From a virus, in the IMG/VR virus record IMGVR_UViG_3300030103_003891, positions 1 to 20,634 of that record: DNA of 20,634 nucleotides; one strand, given 5' to 3'. The translations under genes and the position numbers were made by a program. Below, piece by piece: positions 7,277-14,838 of the stretch (the first letter of the stretch is position 1; the number at the start of each line of letters is the position of its first letter). The notes under the pieces were generated by a model, which did no database searches, was not told where the DNA came from, and saw only the letters and a list, made by a program, of their open reading frames with translations.

Positions 7277-7287
7277 AATGTAGCACA
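7277..7287 (-). promoter_or_regulatory. Promoter-like extended -10 motif, leftward
   Basis: Read on the minus strand the sequence is TGTGCTACATT, with the -10 hexamer TACATT at 7282-7277 and TG one base before it. It is the same motif as the plus-strand copies at 9835, 11882, 12120 and 12626. It overlaps the last codons of the primase-helicase gene region (stop at 7288-7290) and lies about 22 bases upstream of the GTG at 7254. No good -35 is visible, as is common for extended -10 promoters. Confidence 0.5.
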
Positions 7288-9735
7288 TTAACTCCGCCAG
7301 GGCAGCTTATCGCCAAAAGGGTTTGCGTCATCGTCGAAATCGTCCCCATCCCTATGTATAGGTTTTTCCGCGTCAAAAGCCGGAGGCGTTGCGGGGGAAG
7401 GGTTCTTAACGACAATCGGGTTTGTCAAAAGCTCAGGGTTTGTCAAAAGGTCCGACGGCCCAGGCTTTTGACAATCGGGGACTTTTGACAAAAGGGGTTT
7501 GTCGTTTAGATCGGTTCCAGGGGAAGGGGTCTGGCTTTTAACACTCTTTAAAACAGACGCCCCCTGTGCGCGAGAGCTAAATTTGGGTAAAACATCTGTA
7601 CCAACGGCCTGCCAGTAGTTGGGTTTTCGGCCCTTAAACTTGAGACCTGCGGGGGGATCACACCGCTGGATCAGTTTTTGAGCTTCCAGTCTGCTGAGGG
7701 CGTATTTGATGGCCCTCACGCGATTCTTTCCTTCCCCGCCGAGCGTCTCGTGTGCTTTTAGATCTGCCGCTGACCAAGCTTTGCGGTTAGCCCGCATCTC
7801 TTTGAGAATCTGGAGCTTGTAGCCATCACAAGTAGATGCGGCCCGTTCTTCGGGCTCAGGCACGTGCCCTACGACATAGGTGAAGTCTTTTAGGAGGGTG
7901 AAGACCTGGCGCACCCCTTCGCGGTTGTCTCGCGACTTCTCAACCGTCACTAGGCGGCTGTTAAAGCTCAGCCCCAGCTCAAGGGTTTGTTTGCTGTCGA
8001 GTTTGACCATGTTCCAGGTTTCATCGACCGCAGCTCTAATCGCGCTGGTGCCACGAAAACCGCCGTTCCGGTTGTTGTGGTGGATCACGATGATGGTGCA
8101 AGCCGGGAAGTCCTTGCCGTTTCTGCGGGCCAAGCGTTTGAGCGGGTGGGCGTATTCCCTGCGGTTCTCCTCGTAGGGGTTGGAGTCGTTGCAGCCATCG
8201 AGGCTGTCAATCACCACCAGTGCGTAATGCTCTTCGTGTTGGATCTGGCAGAACCGCCGATACCACTGCATATCCCACTCAGCCACGACATCGACGTTGG
8301 TGGTCATGTCCTTTTCTTCAAACTGATTTCTCAGCACCATTTCGCTCTGGTCACCGTTAAGCCAGAGGCATTTGGCTTTAGGTACAGGAACATTGTTCCC
8401 GTACACGTTGAACGGGATTCCTTGGCTGACGTGTTTGCAAATTGTCTGGCACAGAGCCGACTTACCCGTGCCACCGTCAGCGTGGATCAGCAGCAGCCAT
8501 GGCTTGGGGAGCAGCCCCGGAATCAGGTACTCAAACGGAGTGTTGTCCAGCTCCTTAACAGCGGCAGGTTTAATGCCTCGGTTCCTTAAATAGGTGATGT
8601 GCGTATCAAGCAACCGATCAATCGCCGCAGCACCCTCACGACGGCCAGCCTCTTGAGCCAGGATGGTTTTGGCCTGGTCCGCGAAGGCTGGGTTGTCGTA
8701 AGTCTCCTCAATTTCAAGGCCGCGAGCAATCAGTTCCTCCGGCCCCAAGAGTTCGAGCTTGTACTTCGCCGGCAGCGCCTGGATCTCTTCCACCAGCTGT
8801 GCAAGACCGTCCCTTTGAAATCGTGAGCGGTCTTTGTCAACTAAATCCGCCTCGTGCATCAAGCTGCCGAAACCAAGTCCGTTGCCTTTAAACCCAATTT
8901 CCCAGCGATCTCTGCAGGGGTTCTTACCGTTCTCCCAATCCCGGTGGTACTCGTTATCGCGGCGGCTCCATTCTTCCCACAATTTCAGGCCATCTTGATT
9001 CGGCAGCTCGCTGTGGAGCATCGCGCCGATCTCCCACCAAAACTGTTCACTGAACGCGCCCCGAGGCTCAATGACGTTCAGGCAACACTGTGCGATGGCA
9101 ATCTTTTCTTCCCTGGATCTTTTGGCCCAGCGTGTGTCGCGTTTGGTGCGTGTGCTGTCTTTCTGATTGCGCTTGATGTACTCCTCACGCATCCGCTCCA
9201 GTAACCACTCCGGCGCCTCTGGAATGTTGTGGGGGTCACCCTTGAATGTGTATTCACCCTCGTACTGGCCATTTTTCCCTGGGTAGGCACCGAAGATGAC
9301 TCCCTGGCGCCCCCACAAGACCTCCCAACCCTCATGATGTGCTGCGGCGTGGCTGATGTCAGCAACTCGCAGGCGGTCAGCCTCTGGGACGCTGAAGAGG
9401 TACTTGCAGGCGTGGGGCCGTGGAGACTTGATGCTTGGGGCTTTGTCTAGATCAGCGCCCCATTTCTCCTGGATCGCCCCGAGGTTGTCATCAACGTCAA
9501 AAATGACGAGGCCATCAGAGCGGTGGCCGCTGTAAACGCCGACAGCTTTGAACGTGTCCGGGTGTTCCTGGACATGTAAGGCCGTGGTTTTTGGGGCCAG
9601 ATTGACGTGACAAGCTTGGCCTAAGGGCGATTTTCCGCACGCTGTCTTTTTGTTAGGCAATGTCTGCCCTTTTGCATAGATGGGCGCAGTCGCCCAGTTC
9701 TCAGGCAATCTGAGGATGAAATCAACCAGATTCAT
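7288..9735 (-). CDS. Primase-polymerase / RecA-fold helicase fusion protein (replication initiator)
   Basis: This 815-residue protein probably primes and unwinds phage DNA. Residues 1-180 look like an archaeo-eukaryotic prim-pol domain: LVIFDVDDN gives the metal-binding D80 and D82, and SPRPHACKYLF the conserved H108. Residues 210-295 fit a PriCT-2-type linker domain (FWWEIGAMLHSELP, LWEEWSRRD). Residues 405-620 are a RecA/RepA-like ATPase with Walker A HADGGTGKS (K425) and Walker B ALVVIDSLDG (D510). VIHHNNRNGGFRGTSAI follows as a sensor-like motif. Residues 635-695 suggest a winged helix, and the last 100 residues are a Pro/Ser/Asp-rich, probably disordered tail. An AAGGA ribosome-binding site precedes the ATG. 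The DNA under the tail holds iteron-like repeats. Confidence 0.9.
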   Translation of the reverse strand: MNLVDFILRLPENWATAPIYAKGQTLPNKKTACGKSPLGQACHVNLAPKTTALHVQEHPDTFKAVGVYSGHRSDGLVIFDVDDNLGAIQEKWGADLDKAPSIKSPRPHACKYLFSVPEADRLRVADISHAAAHHEGWEVLWGRQGVIFGAYPGKNGQYEGEYTFKGDPHNIPEAPEWLLERMREEYIKRNQKDSTRTKRDTRWAKRSREEKIAIAQCCLNVIEPRGAFSEQFWWEIGAMLHSELPNQDGLKLWEEWSRRDNEYHRDWENGKNPCRDRWEIGFKGNGLGFGSLMHEADLVDKDRSRFQRDGLAQLVEEIQALPAKYKLELLGPEELIARGLEIEETYDNPAFADQAKTILAQEAGRREGAAAIDRLLDTHITYLRNRGIKPAAVKELDNTPFEYLIPGLLPKPWLLLIHADGGTGKSALCQTICKHVSQGIPFNVYGNNVPVPKAKCLWLNGDQSEMVLRNQFEEKDMTTNVDVVAEWDMQWYRRFCQIQHEEHYALVVIDSLDGCNDSNPYEENRREYAHPLKRLARRNGKDFPACTIIVIHHNNRNGGFRGTSAIRAAVDETWNMVKLDSKQTLELGLSFNSRLVTVEKSRDNREGVRQVFTLLKDFTYVVGHVPEPEERAASTCDGYKLQILKEMRANRKAWSAADLKAHETLGGEGKNRVRAIKYALSRLEAQKLIQRCDPPAGLKFKGRKPNYWQAVGTDVLPKFSSRAQGASVLKSVKSQTPSPGTDLNDKPLLSKVPDCQKPGPSDLLTNPELLTNPIVVKNPSPATPPAFDAEKPIHRDGDDFDDDANPFGDKLPWRS
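7421..7493. repeat. Cluster of TTTTGACAA / TTGTCAAAA repeats (iteron or operator candidate)
   Basis: Four copies lie within 73 bases: TTTGTCAAAA at 7421 and 7439, TTTTGACAA at 7466, and the near-palindrome TTTTGACAAAA at 7483. Related sequences occur at 9748 (TTTTGTCAA) and 9818 (TTGTCAAA), in the divergent control region in front of the same gene. Inside the coding region they encode a small peptide repeat (LLTNPELLTNP) in a disordered tail. Clustering in both orientations and recurrence upstream of the gene argue for a protein-binding site such as a replication origin or operator. Confidence 0.45.
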
Positions 9736-9736
9736 C

Positions 9737-9745
9737 TGCTACAAT
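9737..9745 (+). promoter_or_regulatory. Possible extended -10 motif, rightward, just upstream of a terminator
   Basis: TGCTACAAT at 9737-9745 matches the -10 part of the recurrent promoter motif, but no -35 hexamer lies at the right distance. Transcription from here would meet the terminator at 9772-9804 after roughly 50 bases, producing only a short RNA. It also overlaps the leader of the divergent primase-helicase gene on the other strand. Confidence 0.25.
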
Positions 9746-9771
9746 CCTTTTGTCAAGTAAATGAAAACAAC

Positions 9772-9804
9772 ACCCCAACGGCTCCGTCAGCCTTGGGGTT
9801 TTTT
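9772..9804 (+). terminator. Rho-independent terminator in the divergent control region
   Basis: CCCCAA (9773-9778) pairs with TTGGGG (9793-9798), and GGCT (9780-9783) pairs with AGCC (9789-9792) around a CCGTC loop, with one bulged C at 9779. Six T residues follow (9799-9804). It points rightward although no rightward gene lies upstream in the adjacent 5.6 kb. It would therefore block antisense read-through or end a short leader RNA before the promoter at 9818. Confidence 0.82.
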
Positions 9805-9817
9805 CATCCTACTCGAC

Positions 9818-9845
9818 TTGTCAAACGCTGCAGTCGTGCTACATT
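9818..9845 (+). promoter_or_regulatory. Rightward promoter for the ssDNA-binding protein gene
   Basis: A -35 box TTGTCA (9818-9823) and an extended -10 GTGCTACATT (TACATT at 9840-9845) are separated by exactly 16 bases. This is the same geometry as the promoters at 12103 and 12609. It follows the terminator at 9772-9804 and precedes the ATG at 9885 by 39 bases. The -35 box overlaps a TTGTCAAA repeat, so an operator function there is possible. Confidence 0.6.
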
Positions 9846-9884
9846 TGCAGAGCACCGGGCAACGCGCCCACAGCAACCACAACA

Positions 9885-10466
9885 ATGCCATTCATCTCAG
9901 ACAAGAACAAAGCAGCCGCCGCCGGTGGCACTGGCAGCTATCTCAACCCCTCCAAAATCCCATCAGGCAGCAACGTGCGTTTCGCACTGCTTGACGATCA
10001 GCCCCTTGAGTTCTTTGAGTGCTGGGGCGAAGACAGCAACGGCAACACCCAGCCTTTCCGCTTTGCAGAAGATCCTTCACCTGAGGAGATCGCTGAAGAG
10101 ATGGGCGAAGAGTGGAGCCGCCGTTTGAACCGCGATGGCAACGGCCCTGAAAAGGTCAAGTTCTCCATTGCTGTGCCGGTATACAACTACGAGACCGAAA
10201 AGGTTGAGGTCATGCCTCTGACCCAGAAAACCCTGATCAACGAATTGGATTCCATCAGCCAGATGGAAGATTACGCCGAGTTACTGGACTGGGATTTTGT
10301 GATGGGCAAGGAGGGCACGGGCCTGGAAACCAAGTACAGCCTGCGGCCCGCACCTCGCAAAAAAGCTTCTCAGTCACAGATCGAGGAAGCCTGGACCGAA
10401 GCTCGCGCCTCTGGTTTTGACATCAGCCGAATGCTGACCGGCGGCAGTCCTTTCAAAAAGGGTTGA
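9885..10466 (+). CDS. Probable single-stranded DNA-binding protein (193 aa)
   Basis: The protein begins MPFISDKNKAAAAGGTGSYL and has a region PSGSNVRFALLDDQPLEFFE with beta-strand character. A segment VKFSIAVPVYNYETEKVEVM precedes a helix with QKTLINELDSISQ. The core is WDFVMGKEGTG followed by a strand and the positively charged SLRPAPRKK. The VPVYNY strand, the LINEL helix and the basic strand after WDF are what I associate with phage OB-fold ssDNA-binding proteins of the gp32-like/gp2.5-like group, often listed as hypothetical. It is the first gene rightward of the control region, next to the divergent primase-helicase, which fits an early replication role. The tail ends FKKG rather than in the typical acidic tip, which lowers my certainty. 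Confidence 0.68.
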   Translation: MPFISDKNKAAAAGGTGSYLNPSKIPSGSNVRFALLDDQPLEFFECWGEDSNGNTQPFRFAEDPSPEEIAEEMGEEWSRRLNRDGNGPEKVKFSIAVPVYNYETEKVEVMPLTQKTLINELDSISQMEDYAELLDWDFVMGKEGTGLETKYSLRPAPRKKASQSQIEEAWTEARASGFDISRMLTGGSPFKKG

Positions 10467-10469
10467 ACC

Positions 10470-10706
10470 ATGTCAATTCAGATTGGTTCAATCCCTGAGG
10501 TTGGCGGGTACCGTCCGGGCGACTTGGCTTTGGACTGCCCTCGTTGCGGTCCCAACAACACCCCTTACTTACATCTGGAACGGGCTAGTGCGGTGGATAG
10601 GGAAACTATCAACCTTAAGTACCGATGCGAGTTGTGCGGTGAGGTCTCTCGCCTGTACCTGGAGCAACACAAGGGACAAACACTTGTCCATTGGGCGCTT
10701 AACTAA
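10470..10706 (+). CDS. Zinc-ribbon protein (78 aa)
   Basis: Two CxxC knuckles are present, CPRC at residues 23-26 and CELC at residues 53-56, separated by 26 residues. The strand pattern (YLHLERASAV, ETINLKYRC) is that of a zinc ribbon. Such proteins bind nucleic acid or act as small transcription or replication adaptors; the sequence does not tell which. The ATG follows the stop of the previous gene by three bases, with an AAAAGGG ribosome-binding site in the preceding gene's last codons, so the two are one operon. The C-terminus (LYLEQHKGQTLVHWALN) completes a beta sheet. Key cysteines are all present. Confidence 0.75.
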   Translation: MSIQIGSIPEVGGYRPGDLALDCPRCGPNNTPYLHLERASAVDRETINLKYRCELCGEVSRLYLEQHKGQTLVHWALN

Positions 10707-10930
10707 CTGTATAAACGCGGCAGGACTAGGGAGGTGACCCCCGAAATCCTGCCTGCCCGTAATCAATACCGGGACTGCTCGGGCCAAGCGGTTTCCAAAA
10801 GCTGTTGTTGATTACAGAAGCAGGGTTCCAGTCTTGGAATAGCAGAGGTTCCGGGGGTGGTTTGACCCTTCATAGGCTGCTATTAAGGCAGGATCGTCCG
10901 TAAGCCCGCGCCACATTTACGCAAATTTCA
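10707..10930 (+). other. 224-base intergenic region with inverted repeats and a broken small ORF
   Basis: GGCAGGA (10719-10725) can pair with TCCTGCC (10747-10753), and GTAATCAA (10759-10766) with TTGATTAC (10807-10814). TTCCA/TGGAA (10826-10830 with 10835-10839) and GGGT/ACCC (10855-10858 with 10865-10868) give smaller hairpins. A perfect GGAGGTGA Shine-Dalgarno sequence sits at 10730-10737. A frame from GTG 10734 to TGA 10811 becomes a longer coherent peptide if one base is skipped in AAAA at 10797-10800, ending at TAG 10842. TGCTATTAA at 10878-10886 could be an extended -10 for the nuclease gene. Folded RNA, leader and decayed small gene are all possible. Confidence 0.35.
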
Positions 10931-11731
10931 ATGCCCGCCGATACTCAAAACGCTCTTGCGGGTTTACGCCGCTGGACCCTGGAACGTGACGACTCCGGCC
11001 CGCACCGCGTGTACCGAGATGAAGAGGGCAACACCTACGCCTCTGTCACCCACATACTCAAAGAGACTTCACCCCAATGGCAGAAAGATGCACTTGATCG
11101 TTGGACTAAAAAGCCCGGTGCTGCCGTGGAGCGTGATGTTGCTTGCCAGCGCGGGACTTTGGCGCACGATCACGCAGAGTACGTCCTCAAAACAGCAGCA
11201 AAGCTGGCTCGACAAACTGCCAACAAACGGAACAGCTGGCGGAGCGGAGATGATGGCCTGGAACGTGCCCCCAAGCAGATCACCAGCTGGGCCATCGGTA
11301 AGGCAATCCAAGGTGCACCGCGTGTCCCCTGGAGCGCCAGTGGCTACGCCCGAGGCTTACGGTCTTGGATCGGGGCCAATGTGACCGCAATCCACGCGAT
11401 TGAGTTTTCAGTGTTTGACCCGCGAGGCTGGGCTGGAACGGCAGACGCTCTGATCGACTTAGACGGCACCCTTTGCATCGCTGACTGGAAAACCAGCGTC
11501 AACGCTCGCAGTGAAGAGATGCTGGCAAATTACATCTGTCAGGCTGGCGCGTACTCCCTAGGGCTTCAGCACCTGACGGGCATCAAACCCAAAACGGGAG
11601 CGGTTGTGGTGGCTCGCCGCAGTGGTGCACCTCAGGTCCGCTTGCTCAATGAGTTAGAATTACGCGGGGCGGAATGTCAGTGGCTAGAAAGGATGAGCCT
11701 ATACAAGGCCCAAGAACTGTTGGAGAGCTAG
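10931..11731 (+). CDS. PD-(D/E)XK nuclease (Cas4/RecB-like exonuclease)
   Basis: This 266-residue protein carries the motif set of the PD-(D/E)XK nuclease fold. RGTLAHDHAE (R74, H79) leads, followed by AIEFSVFD (E158), GTADALIDLDG (D172), ADWKTS (D185, K187) and QAGAY (Q204, Y208). These residues bind the catalytic metal and cleave DNA, usually as an exonuclease in recombination or host-DNA degradation. No cysteine quartet typical of an iron-sulfur Cas4 is present, so it is closer to phage RecB-like exonucleases. The ATG lacks a clear ribosome-binding site. It lies downstream of the ssDNA-binding and zinc-ribbon genes, which fits a recombination/replication module. The 3' end overlaps the next gene by 58 bases. 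Confidence 0.86.
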   Translation: MPADTQNALAGLRRWTLERDDSGPHRVYRDEEGNTYASVTHILKETSPQWQKDALDRWTKKPGAAVERDVACQRGTLAHDHAEYVLKTAAKLARQTANKRNSWRSGDDGLERAPKQITSWAIGKAIQGAPRVPWSASGYARGLRSWIGANVTAIHAIEFSVFDPRGWAGTADALIDLDGTLCIADWKTSVNARSEEMLANYICQAGAYSLGLQHLTGIKPKTGAVVVARRSGAPQVRLLNELELRGAECQWLERMSLYKAQELLES

Positions 11732-11907
11732 AGGAAGCGATCCAGGAAACCCTGGAGCGTCTCTACACAGGCCAGGAGAACGTGGCGAAGCAGGCCATGA
11801 GGCTTTGTCTGCCTATGGAACGTCTGAAGGAGCTGTTCAACCAGTACGTAGCAGACCGACCTATCGACGTCACTGATTGTTTGTGCTACAATTCAAAAGT
11901 CCAATAA
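11674..11907 (+). CDS. Small helical hypothetical protein (77 aa)
   Basis: The ATG at 11674 lies inside the nuclease gene in another frame. The product MSVARKDEPIQGPRTVGELE continues as two helices (EAIQETLERLYTGQENVAKQ, LPMERLKELFNQYV) and a short tail DRPIDVTDCLCYNSKVQ. It has the look of a small dimeric or DNA-associated helical protein but no recognised motif. The last 40 bases also contain the promoter that drives the next gene (11864-11892), so its C-terminus is encoded over a regulatory site. Overlap with the nuclease suggests translational coupling. Confidence 0.55.
   Translation: MSVARKDEPIQGPRTVGELEEAIQETLERLYTGQENVAKQAMRLCLPMERLKELFNQYVADRPIDVTDCLCYNSKVQ
11864..11892 (+). promoter_or_regulatory. 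Rightward promoter for the 47-residue coiled-coil gene
   Basis: A -10 box in the extended form TGTGCTACAAT (TACAAT at 11887-11892) is preceded 17 bases upstream by TCGACG (11864-11869), four of six matches to TTGACA. It is one of the two perfect copies of the recurrent TTTGTGCTACAAT motif and lies 30 bases before the ATG at 11923. Confidence 0.55.
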
Positions 11908-11922
11908 GCACCCCCACCGATC

Positions 11923-12066
11923 ATGCTGGAAAGTTTTGCAAACCAGCTGGCTGACCTAGTCAAACAGCTGGAGGAGTCAGACAAACGACTCAAAGAGCTG
12001 ACAGACCAACACGTAGCTGAGCAGCGACGGCTCTTGGACGAGCTGGAACGAATCGCCAAAGATTGA
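11923..12066 (+). CDS. Coiled-coil micro-protein (47 aa)
   Basis: The ATG at 11923 opens 47 codons ending in TGA at 12064-12066. Almost the whole product is a heptad-patterned charged helix: MLESFANQLADLVKQLEESD, then KRLKELTDQHVAEQRRLLDE and LERIAKD. It has its own promoter upstream and a strong terminator six bases after the stop, so it is a one-gene transcription unit. That arrangement is strong evidence that so small a frame is real. A short dimeric coiled coil could act by binding and inhibiting another protein, for example a host factor, but nothing in the sequence identifies the partner. Confidence 0.65.
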   Translation: MLESFANQLADLVKQLEESDKRLKELTDQHVAEQRRLLDELERIAKD

Positions 12067-12071
12067 ACCTC

Positions 12072-12093
12072 GGGGCCTGATGGCCCCTTTTTT
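12072..12093 (+). terminator. Rho-independent terminator
   Basis: A perfect GGGGCC (12072-12077) / GGCCCC (12082-12087) stem with a TGAT loop is followed by six T residues (12088-12093). It ends the transcript of the 47-residue gene, and a new promoter begins ten bases further on. Confidence 0.9.
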
Positions 12094-12102
12094 GTGCCCG
12101 CG

Positions 12103-12130
12103 TTGCACTCCCCCTAGTTTGTGCTACAAT
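12103..12130 (+). promoter_or_regulatory. Rightward promoter for the 79-residue gene
   Basis: TTGCAC (12103-12108), a 16-base spacer and TACAAT (12125-12130) with the upstream TG of an extended -10 (TTTGTGCTACAAT). The copy at 12609 has the same -35 hexamer and spacing. The ATG at 12155 is 24 bases downstream. Confidence 0.65.
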
Positions 12131-12154
12131 TTGATCATTGAAACGGACACCCCC

Positions 12155-12394
12155 ATGAACCTTCAAACCTTCTTCACCGAGAAAGACTTCGACATCCGCA
12201 CCTACGAGGTGGTCAGCCCCACTACAGGCGACAGCCACATCATCACCACCGATGTTGTGATTGATCGCATCCTCAGCACCCAAGGCCAAGAGCGTCAGGG
12301 CGTGGTCCGCATCCTGCAACAGCTGGACTTCGCCAACGGCGACTTCCACCATTTCTTCAAGCACCTGGCCACCGGCCTCGCTGCCCAGTTCTGA
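12155..12394 (+). CDS. Small hypothetical protein (79 aa)
   Basis: The ATG follows its own promoter by 24 bases. The protein MNLQTFFTEKDFDIRTYEVV has N-terminal strands (IRTYEVVSPTTGDSHIITTD), then helices (VVIDRILSTQGQ, QGVVRILQQLDFANGDFHHF) and the end FKHLATGLAAQF. This alpha/beta layout with a TTDVVIDRIL helix resembles small uncharacterised phage proteins I remember from cyanophages, without a function. The stop is followed after one base by the ATG of the next gene, so the two are co-translated. No metal or catalytic motif is visible. Confidence 0.68.
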   Translation: MNLQTFFTEKDFDIRTYEVVSPTTGDSHIITTDVVIDRILSTQGQERQGVVRILQQLDFANGDFHHFFKHLATGLAAQF

Positions 12395-12395
12395 G

Positions 12396-12608
12396 ATGGA
12401 CTTCCACAACTACAGCCTGCTGGAACATGAGAGGCGAGAGTACCTGGAGGACCTCGCCGCAGCCCAAGAGCGAGAGGAGGCAGAACTGATCCGGTTCCGC
12501 CTACTCACCGACGACGGCGACACTGATTGCCTGGACCGTGAGGATCTGGAGCAGGCGATTACAGAGGCTCGGCGGTACGGACTGGATTACACCATCGAGA
12601 TCGTCTAG
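12396..12608 (+). CDS. Acidic helical hypothetical protein (70 aa)
   Basis: The ATG lies one base after the preceding stop. The product is highly charged and helical: MDFHNYSLLEHERREYLEDL, AAAQEREEAELIRFRLL, then a DDGDTDCLDREDLEQAI segment resembling an EF-hand-like acidic loop, and a final helix with RRYGLDYTIEIV. Calcium binding is not claimed, because the loop does not follow the canonical 12-residue spacing. The strong negative charge is reminiscent of DNA-mimic or anti-restriction proteins, but that is only a compositional analogy. It shares a promoter with the 79-residue gene. Confidence 0.6.
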   Translation: MDFHNYSLLEHERREYLEDLAAAQEREEAELIRFRLLTDDGDTDCLDREDLEQAITEARRYGLDYTIEIV

Positions 12609-12636
12609 TTGCACCCCTACCTTTTTGTGCTACATT
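12609..12636 (+). promoter_or_regulatory. Rightward promoter for the 59-residue membrane protein gene
   Basis: TTGCAC (12609-12614) is followed after 16 bases by TACATT (12631-12636) within TTTTTGTGCTACATT. The -35 hexamer and spacer length equal those at 12103. The promoter begins at the base after the stop of the 70-residue gene; the ATG at 12663 lies 26 bases downstream. Confidence 0.62.
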
Positions 12637-14728: not shown

Positions 14729-14762
14729 TGTGGTCGTGGGGGGTGCCCATTAGACCTTGAGA

Positions 14763-14788
14763 GGGGGCAGTTGCTGGCCCCTTTTCTT
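14763..14788 (+). terminator. Rho-independent terminator after the large terminase gene
   Basis: GGGGC (14764-14768) pairs with GCCCC (14777-14781) around the loop AGTTGCTG, followed by TTTTCTT (14782-14788). An alternative fold pairs CAG with CTG inside a G/G mismatch. The loop carries the -35 box of the following promoter. Confidence 0.75.
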
Positions 14789-14799
14789 GTGTCTATAGA
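14771..14799 (+). promoter_or_regulatory. Rightward promoter for the head module
   Basis: TTGCTG (14771-14776) and TATAGA (14794-14799) are 17 bases apart, a near-ideal spacing for a vegetative sigma factor. The portal GTG start at 14839 lies 39 bases downstream. The -35 overlaps the terminator loop, so the two functions share DNA. The -10 lacks the TGTGCTACAWT form of the other promoters, which may set its timing apart. Confidence 0.5.
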
Positions 14800-14838
14800 T
14801 CTGTCGATTAACATCAGATCATCGGGCGGGCTTAGGTC

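Follow-up and report, generated by a model that had tools for sequence, protein, structure and literature searches.

A probable extended -10 promoter class and predicted RNA elements on the replication side of uncultured marine cyanosiphovirus-like phages

Genes and features of the window

The window, i.e. the whole 20,634-nucleotide stretch of viral DNA that was analysed, carries a leftward primase-helicase gene and a rightward ssb-like gene that diverge from one another, with a nuclease gene and small genes further to the right (Table 1). Gene 9885 matches PHROG 1607, single strand DNA binding protein (E 6.8e-6); as a fold search with a model of the protein gave no significant match, the label “ssb-like” is taken from the PHROG profile only. 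No phage record closely matches the window. The nearest terminases to its TerL, at 59-63% identity, are those of KBS-S-2A, S-H1 and MED4-184, whose hosts are Synechococcus WH7803 or Prochlorococcus MED4. Relatives are here defined as viral contig loci retrieved by scans with TerL (38) and with the ssb-like protein (39), and a TerL scan of genome contigs gave no match.

Table 1. Coordinates of promoters, RNA elements and flanking genes in the window
Feature	Position	Strand	Remarks
Promoter motif TGTGCTACATT, -10 TACATT	7277..7287	minus	23 bp before gene 7254 (minus)
Primase-helicase gene	7288..9735	minus	Pfam Prim-Pol, PriCT_2, AAA_25; divergent from P1/P2
Promoter P1 (predicted), TGCTACAAT	9737..9745	plus	Reads away from primase; no clear -35
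Predicted P1 transcript, ~53 nt	9752..9804	plus	Start predicted; stops at intrinsic terminator
Intrinsic terminator ACCCCAACGGCTCCGTCAGCCTTGGGGT + T tract	9772..9804	plus	Between two divergent genes
Candidate primase -10 (TAnnAT)	9806..9811	minus	Weak; no conserved -35
Promoter P2 (predicted): TTGTCA, 16 bp, TACATT	9818..9845	plus	TGC before -10
Leader element GCACCGGGCAACGCGCCCACAGCAA, stem GGGC/GCCC	9852..9876	plus	Near expected 5' end of ssb-like mRNA
ssb-like gene	9885..10466	plus	Driven by P2 (predicted); PHROG 1607
Structured noncoding RNA, ~195 nt	10717..10909	plus	Between ssb-like and nuclease genes; contains TGCTATTAA
Promoter motif TGTGCTACAAT	11882..11892	plus	Before gene 11923; overlaps end of gene 11674-11907
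Intrinsic terminator GGGGCCTGATGGCCCC + T tract	12072..12093	plus	Just ahead of 12103..12130 promoter
Promoter TTGCAC, 16 bp, TACAAT (TGTGCTACAAT)	12103..12130	plus	Before gene 12155
Promoter TTGCAC, 16 bp, TACATT (TGTGCTACATT)	12609..12636	plus	Before gene 12663

The TGCTACAWT motif

The original prediction placed a recurrent promoter motif, TGTGCTACAWT, in front of at least five transcription units. Its recurrence is real: TGCTACAWT is found six times in the 20.6-kb window where 0.2 copies are expected, and none of 300 dinucleotide shuffles reaches six. The exact 11-mer accounts for four of the places (7277-7287 on the minus strand, 11882, 12120 and 12626; 0.013 expected, with 0 of 300 dinucleotide shuffles reaching four). 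The copies at 9737 and 9837 match TGCTACAWT but not the 11-mer, because the sequence reads TCTGCTACAAT at 9735 and CGTGCTACATT before gene 9885, the latter being one of the five units to which the 11-mer had been assigned. With two mismatches permitted, a search of the window for TGTGCTACAWT is not significant (12 against 8.8), and the signal therefore resides in the exact core. The proposal that the copies share bases beyond this core did not hold up, as the extension TTTGTGCTACA is common only to the copies at 11882, 12120 and 12626, and the relatives show TG, CG, TC, CC, AG or TT ahead of TGCTACAWT. The conserved core is TGCTACAWT, preceded by TTTG in three copies only. The whole window holds nine TGNTANNNT sites, six of which are the motif, and each of the six motif copies faces a gene that starts 23-140 bp further on. 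TTG hexamers lie exactly 16 bp before the -10, as foreseen, at 9818 (TTGTCA), 12103 and 12609 (both TTGCAC). An ordinary sigma-70 scan gave no excess of promoters; TGn ahead of TAnnnT, the arrangement of a sigma-70 extended -10 element, is found at conserved places.

The extension of the search to related phages also favours the prediction, with TGCTACADT occurring 39 times in 13 related records and the pattern read backwards 0 times. Across the relatives' loci TGCTACAWT occurs 99 times, and its surroundings fall into 30 distinct contexts. TTG lies at a spacer of 16 in eight of these contexts, against 0-2 at most other offsets, and at a spacer of 16-19 in 15. A -35 box is thus enriched at 16-18 bp over other offsets, some copies being without one, and other TGnTAnnnT sites in the relatives show a flat TTG background. 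Since the -35 box played no part in the selection of sites, this enrichment is an independent test. The genes downstream are orthologous in the relatives (the ssb-like gene, 7254, 11923, 12155 and 12663), and in 13 relatives the motif stands directly before polA. The 7277 promoter directly follows the primase stop codon, within the primase-polA gene string; its orthologous copy has TTGACC or TTGACG 17 bp upstream in L055, L056, L057, L063 and L064, where the downstream gene is orthologous, and the window's own copy has a poor -35, CTGCCC. The 11882 promoter is kept in relatives with the downstream gene either the same or swapped. Orthologs of the 12103..12130 promoter are found in six loci (L009, L015, L016, L034, L047 and L081), as are those of the 12609..12636 promoter (L009, L016, L047, L011, L025 and L031). 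The independent -35 signal, the orthologous positions in diverged relatives and the orientation towards gene starts all speak for a promoter class, and the repeated signals are very probably genuine promoters for replication-side genes.

This class is limited to the replication side and absent from the head module. In the TerL-bearing contigs, 27 copies of the motif lie before the end of TerL (133 kb) and 0 after it (116 kb), counts to which no p-value is attached because the related contigs, mostly fragments, are not independent samples. The head-module promoter had been expected to lack this form, and the motif is indeed absent from the terL-portal gap near 14783. The promoters may plausibly be early or middle in timing; what is known of them is their position before TerL and the functions of their genes. 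That the host sigma factor reads the motif, as was supposed, agrees with the absence of a Sigma70_r2 domain from 14 related records, mostly fragments, in a search whose control gave a signal in 10 of the 14 genomes. The search for the RNA_pol family (single-subunit RNA polymerase) ran without a positive control, and its outcome carries no weight. A host RNA polymerase of the sigma-70 type probably recognises the motif.

We consider it highly probable that TGCTACAWT is the extended -10 element, often with a TTG -35 box at 16-17 bp, of a host-RNA-polymerase promoter class for the replication side of uncultured marine cyanosiphovirus-like phages. TGn together with TACAWT would form the extended -10, and the TTG-type box often found 16-17 bp upstream would be the -35; host RNA polymerase would transcribe the ssb-like gene and the primase-polA gene string together with small unknown genes, the head genes being excluded. 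Such promoters, tied to replication genes, would make it possible to draw a working transcription map for phages that are represented by metagenomes alone.

There is a serious case, to which we give somewhat less than an even chance, for regarding TGCTACAWT as an ordinary strong host promoter form that is used everywhere, and that neither defines a phage class nor carries information on timing. TTGAC-N12-TGTGCTACAAT turns up in numerous unrelated bacteria, in at least 118 genome stretches (by our own estimate chance alone would give about 120 over the entire collection, so that the excess is unquantified; no cyanobacterium is among the matches listed), and S-PM2 also has TGCTACAWT, 12 copies against 1 backwards. 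However, the copies avoid the head module, and other cyanophages use other forms: ten of the 11 other cyanophage records searched hold 0 or 1 copies, and S-CBS2 (NC_015463) has an excess of TGNTAYAMT, mostly TGSTATACT (10 against 1 backwards), which is perhaps an extended -10 class of its own. Because it is near-absent from most other cyanophage records, the exact TGCTACAWT form appears to be particular to this clade, though the extended -10 type to which it belongs is widespread. No cultured host can be assigned to the class, as the cultured TerL relatives KBS-S-2A, S-H1 and MED4-184 are without TGCTACAWT. The fixed C of TGCTACA exceeds the requirement for TGn, and there are few other TGnTAnnnT variants in the phage, as might be expected if, beyond the sigma contact, the motif also included a site bound by an activator or repressor of the phage, making it a middle-promoter or regulon box. 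This we hold to be improbable, given that in the 30 distinct contexts conservation is confined to the -10 core and TTG box, and that no candidate regulator was identified.

RNA elements around the ssb-like gene

A conserved unit of predicted promoter, terminator and promoter sits between the primase and ssb-like genes. In all 33 distinct sequences P1 is kept as YGCTACANT, and the P1-P2 distance is 99-102 bp. The aligned sequences also keep the TTG and TGCTACRNT of P2. Between the two, the terminator stem covaries, with four of seven pairs changing on both sides and still paired (97% of cells paired), and the predicted P1 RNA is 52-54 nt long across distinct sequences. Downstream of P2, the ssb-like leader GCACCGGGCAACRCGCCCACAGCAA is near-invariant (25 bases, 27 sequences); its stem is without covariation support because the GGGC/GCCC bases never vary. 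Rfam has no match to the promoter region.

P1 abuts the primase start codon, is without a -35, and in five records has lost its TG (CGCTACAAT), so that its conservation could come from the primase translation start region on the opposite strand, with no promoter present. We think this unlikely, since the P1 core is the same 9-mer as at the other sites and the covarying rightward terminator ends 67-69 bp on in 33 of 33 distinct sequences. As the primase and ssb-like genes diverge, there is no gene upstream whose transcription that terminator could stop, and it therefore needs a transcript starting at P1. With P1 read as a promoter, it probably makes a ~53-nt RNA antisense to the primase leader. 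The RNA would be complementary to this leader given a leftward primase promoter in the intergenic region, for which the sequence at 9806..9811, conserved as CATnnTA (plus strand) in the intergenic alignment, is a candidate -10. The OOP RNA of phage lambda is short, terminator-ended and lies beside a replication gene. The predicted P1 RNA is likewise short, terminator-ended and next to a replication gene, but unlike OOP it would face the primase mRNA leader. The fixed P1-terminator-P2 geometry offers a testable proposal for the control of Prim-Pol-type primase genes in marine cyanophages.

A variant of the promoter motif, TGCTATTAA, had been proposed at 10878 in front of the nuclease gene. The sequence is present and ends in A, and we reject it as a promoter, its bases belonging in relatives to a structured RNA. 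There are 11 full and 2 cut-off copies of this RNA. The full copies share one branched fold, in which both partners have changed with pairing kept in 15 of 55 pairs, and standard pairs fill 95.5% of the pair cells, compared with 31-44% when the partners are slid. Among 70 sources, a covariance model matches only the 11 full and two cut-off copies, and Rfam holds no family matching the RNA. Judged by this comparative folding, the element at 10717-10909 is a structured RNA and not a promoter. In relatives its usual start is just past the ssb-like gene, and a terminator often comes after it; the RNA is absent at the ssb-like/nuclease position in L015 and L047.

The primase/ssb-like intergenic region may serve RNA-based control of replication genes in uncultured cyanosiphoviruses, with an antisense RNA from P1 and an ssb-like mRNA with a conserved 5' hairpin from P2; some members of the clade, among them the window, would add a structured RNA of ~195 nt, not described before, between the ssb-like and nuclease genes. 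We offer this joint reading tentatively, and regard it as doubtful when taken as a whole. Two RNA elements that sequence annotation misses are thereby pointed out.

Breakpoints at promoters and comparison with known systems

In the sequences compared, the predicted promoter copies also mark breakpoints of small-gene swaps. L047 is without window positions 11894-12116, with 11893 joined to 12117 within the shared promoter repeat, and L015, L034 and L081 part from the window immediately past the 12634 promoter. Gene exchange at promoter elements is thus observed, at these breakpoints, in few cases. It is nevertheless very improbable that the repeats persist chiefly as seams for recombination, with promoter activity secondary: most copies (ssb-like, primase-polA) stand at fixed genes that are not swapped, and both the -35 signal and the distances to gene starts are of promoter type.

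Of 43 distinct promoter sites, 9 have a terminator in the 100 bp before them, an enrichment over random places (24 of 840) that still concerns a minority of the sites; at L011:2365 and L058:10154, TTGAC sits in the terminator loop. Promoter copies of this kind resemble the PeSLs, composite promoter-terminator cassettes of T4-type phages, as these are described in the text that cites them (Arbiol 2010 and Comeau 2014, cited in PMC4503421), in that, at this minority of sites, an early-type promoter stands beside a terminator hairpin, and in that small genes are exchanged at promoter copies. Unlike the T4-type PeSLs of that description, they belong to a siphovirus-like group unrelated to T4, with its nearest terminases in KBS-S-2A, S-H1 and MED4-184, and only the nine distinct sites have a terminator near. 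The SAS of cluster K mycobacteriophages (PMC3203893) are also short repeats upstream of many small genes, with a proposed regulatory role and as a recombination target, but they are tied to the start codon, whereas the promoters described here lie 20-40 bp upstream (23-140 bp for the six window copies) and have -35 and -10 boxes.

Extended -10 promoters of the sigma-70/SigA type are described for Ma-LMM01 (PMC5780444) and in the -10 map of S. elongatus (PMC3219970). In common with phage and cyanobacterial SigA promoters, the present class has TGn and TAnnnT with a -35-like box ~16-18 bp upstream, and would be read with no phage sigma factor. It differs from Ma-LMM01, where promoters are more varied, in that a single 9-mer, TGCTACAWT, is used throughout, with a TTG box and on the replication side only. 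Cyanobacterial promoters are often without a -35 motif, whereas the TGCTACAWT class has its TTG box.

Several other repeated sequences were noted. CCTGGAACG is about 30-fold over-represented in the TerL and ssb-like viral loci (292 against 8.9 expected) and was set aside as a motif because its synonymous variants suggest Leu-Glu-Arg codons. Near-palindromes of the form TTTTGWCAAAA, either operators or a coding repeat, are clustered at 7422-7495 of the window, within the 3' portion of primase, with one at 9748 by P1. The terL-portal gap (window 14759-14800) carries a terminator and then a conserved TTTCTTGTGTCT element, usually followed by RYAGATC. The TTTCTTGTGTCT element, possibly a late promoter of another form, is also found at L012:3246, L020:7274, L027:8700 and L037:4046.
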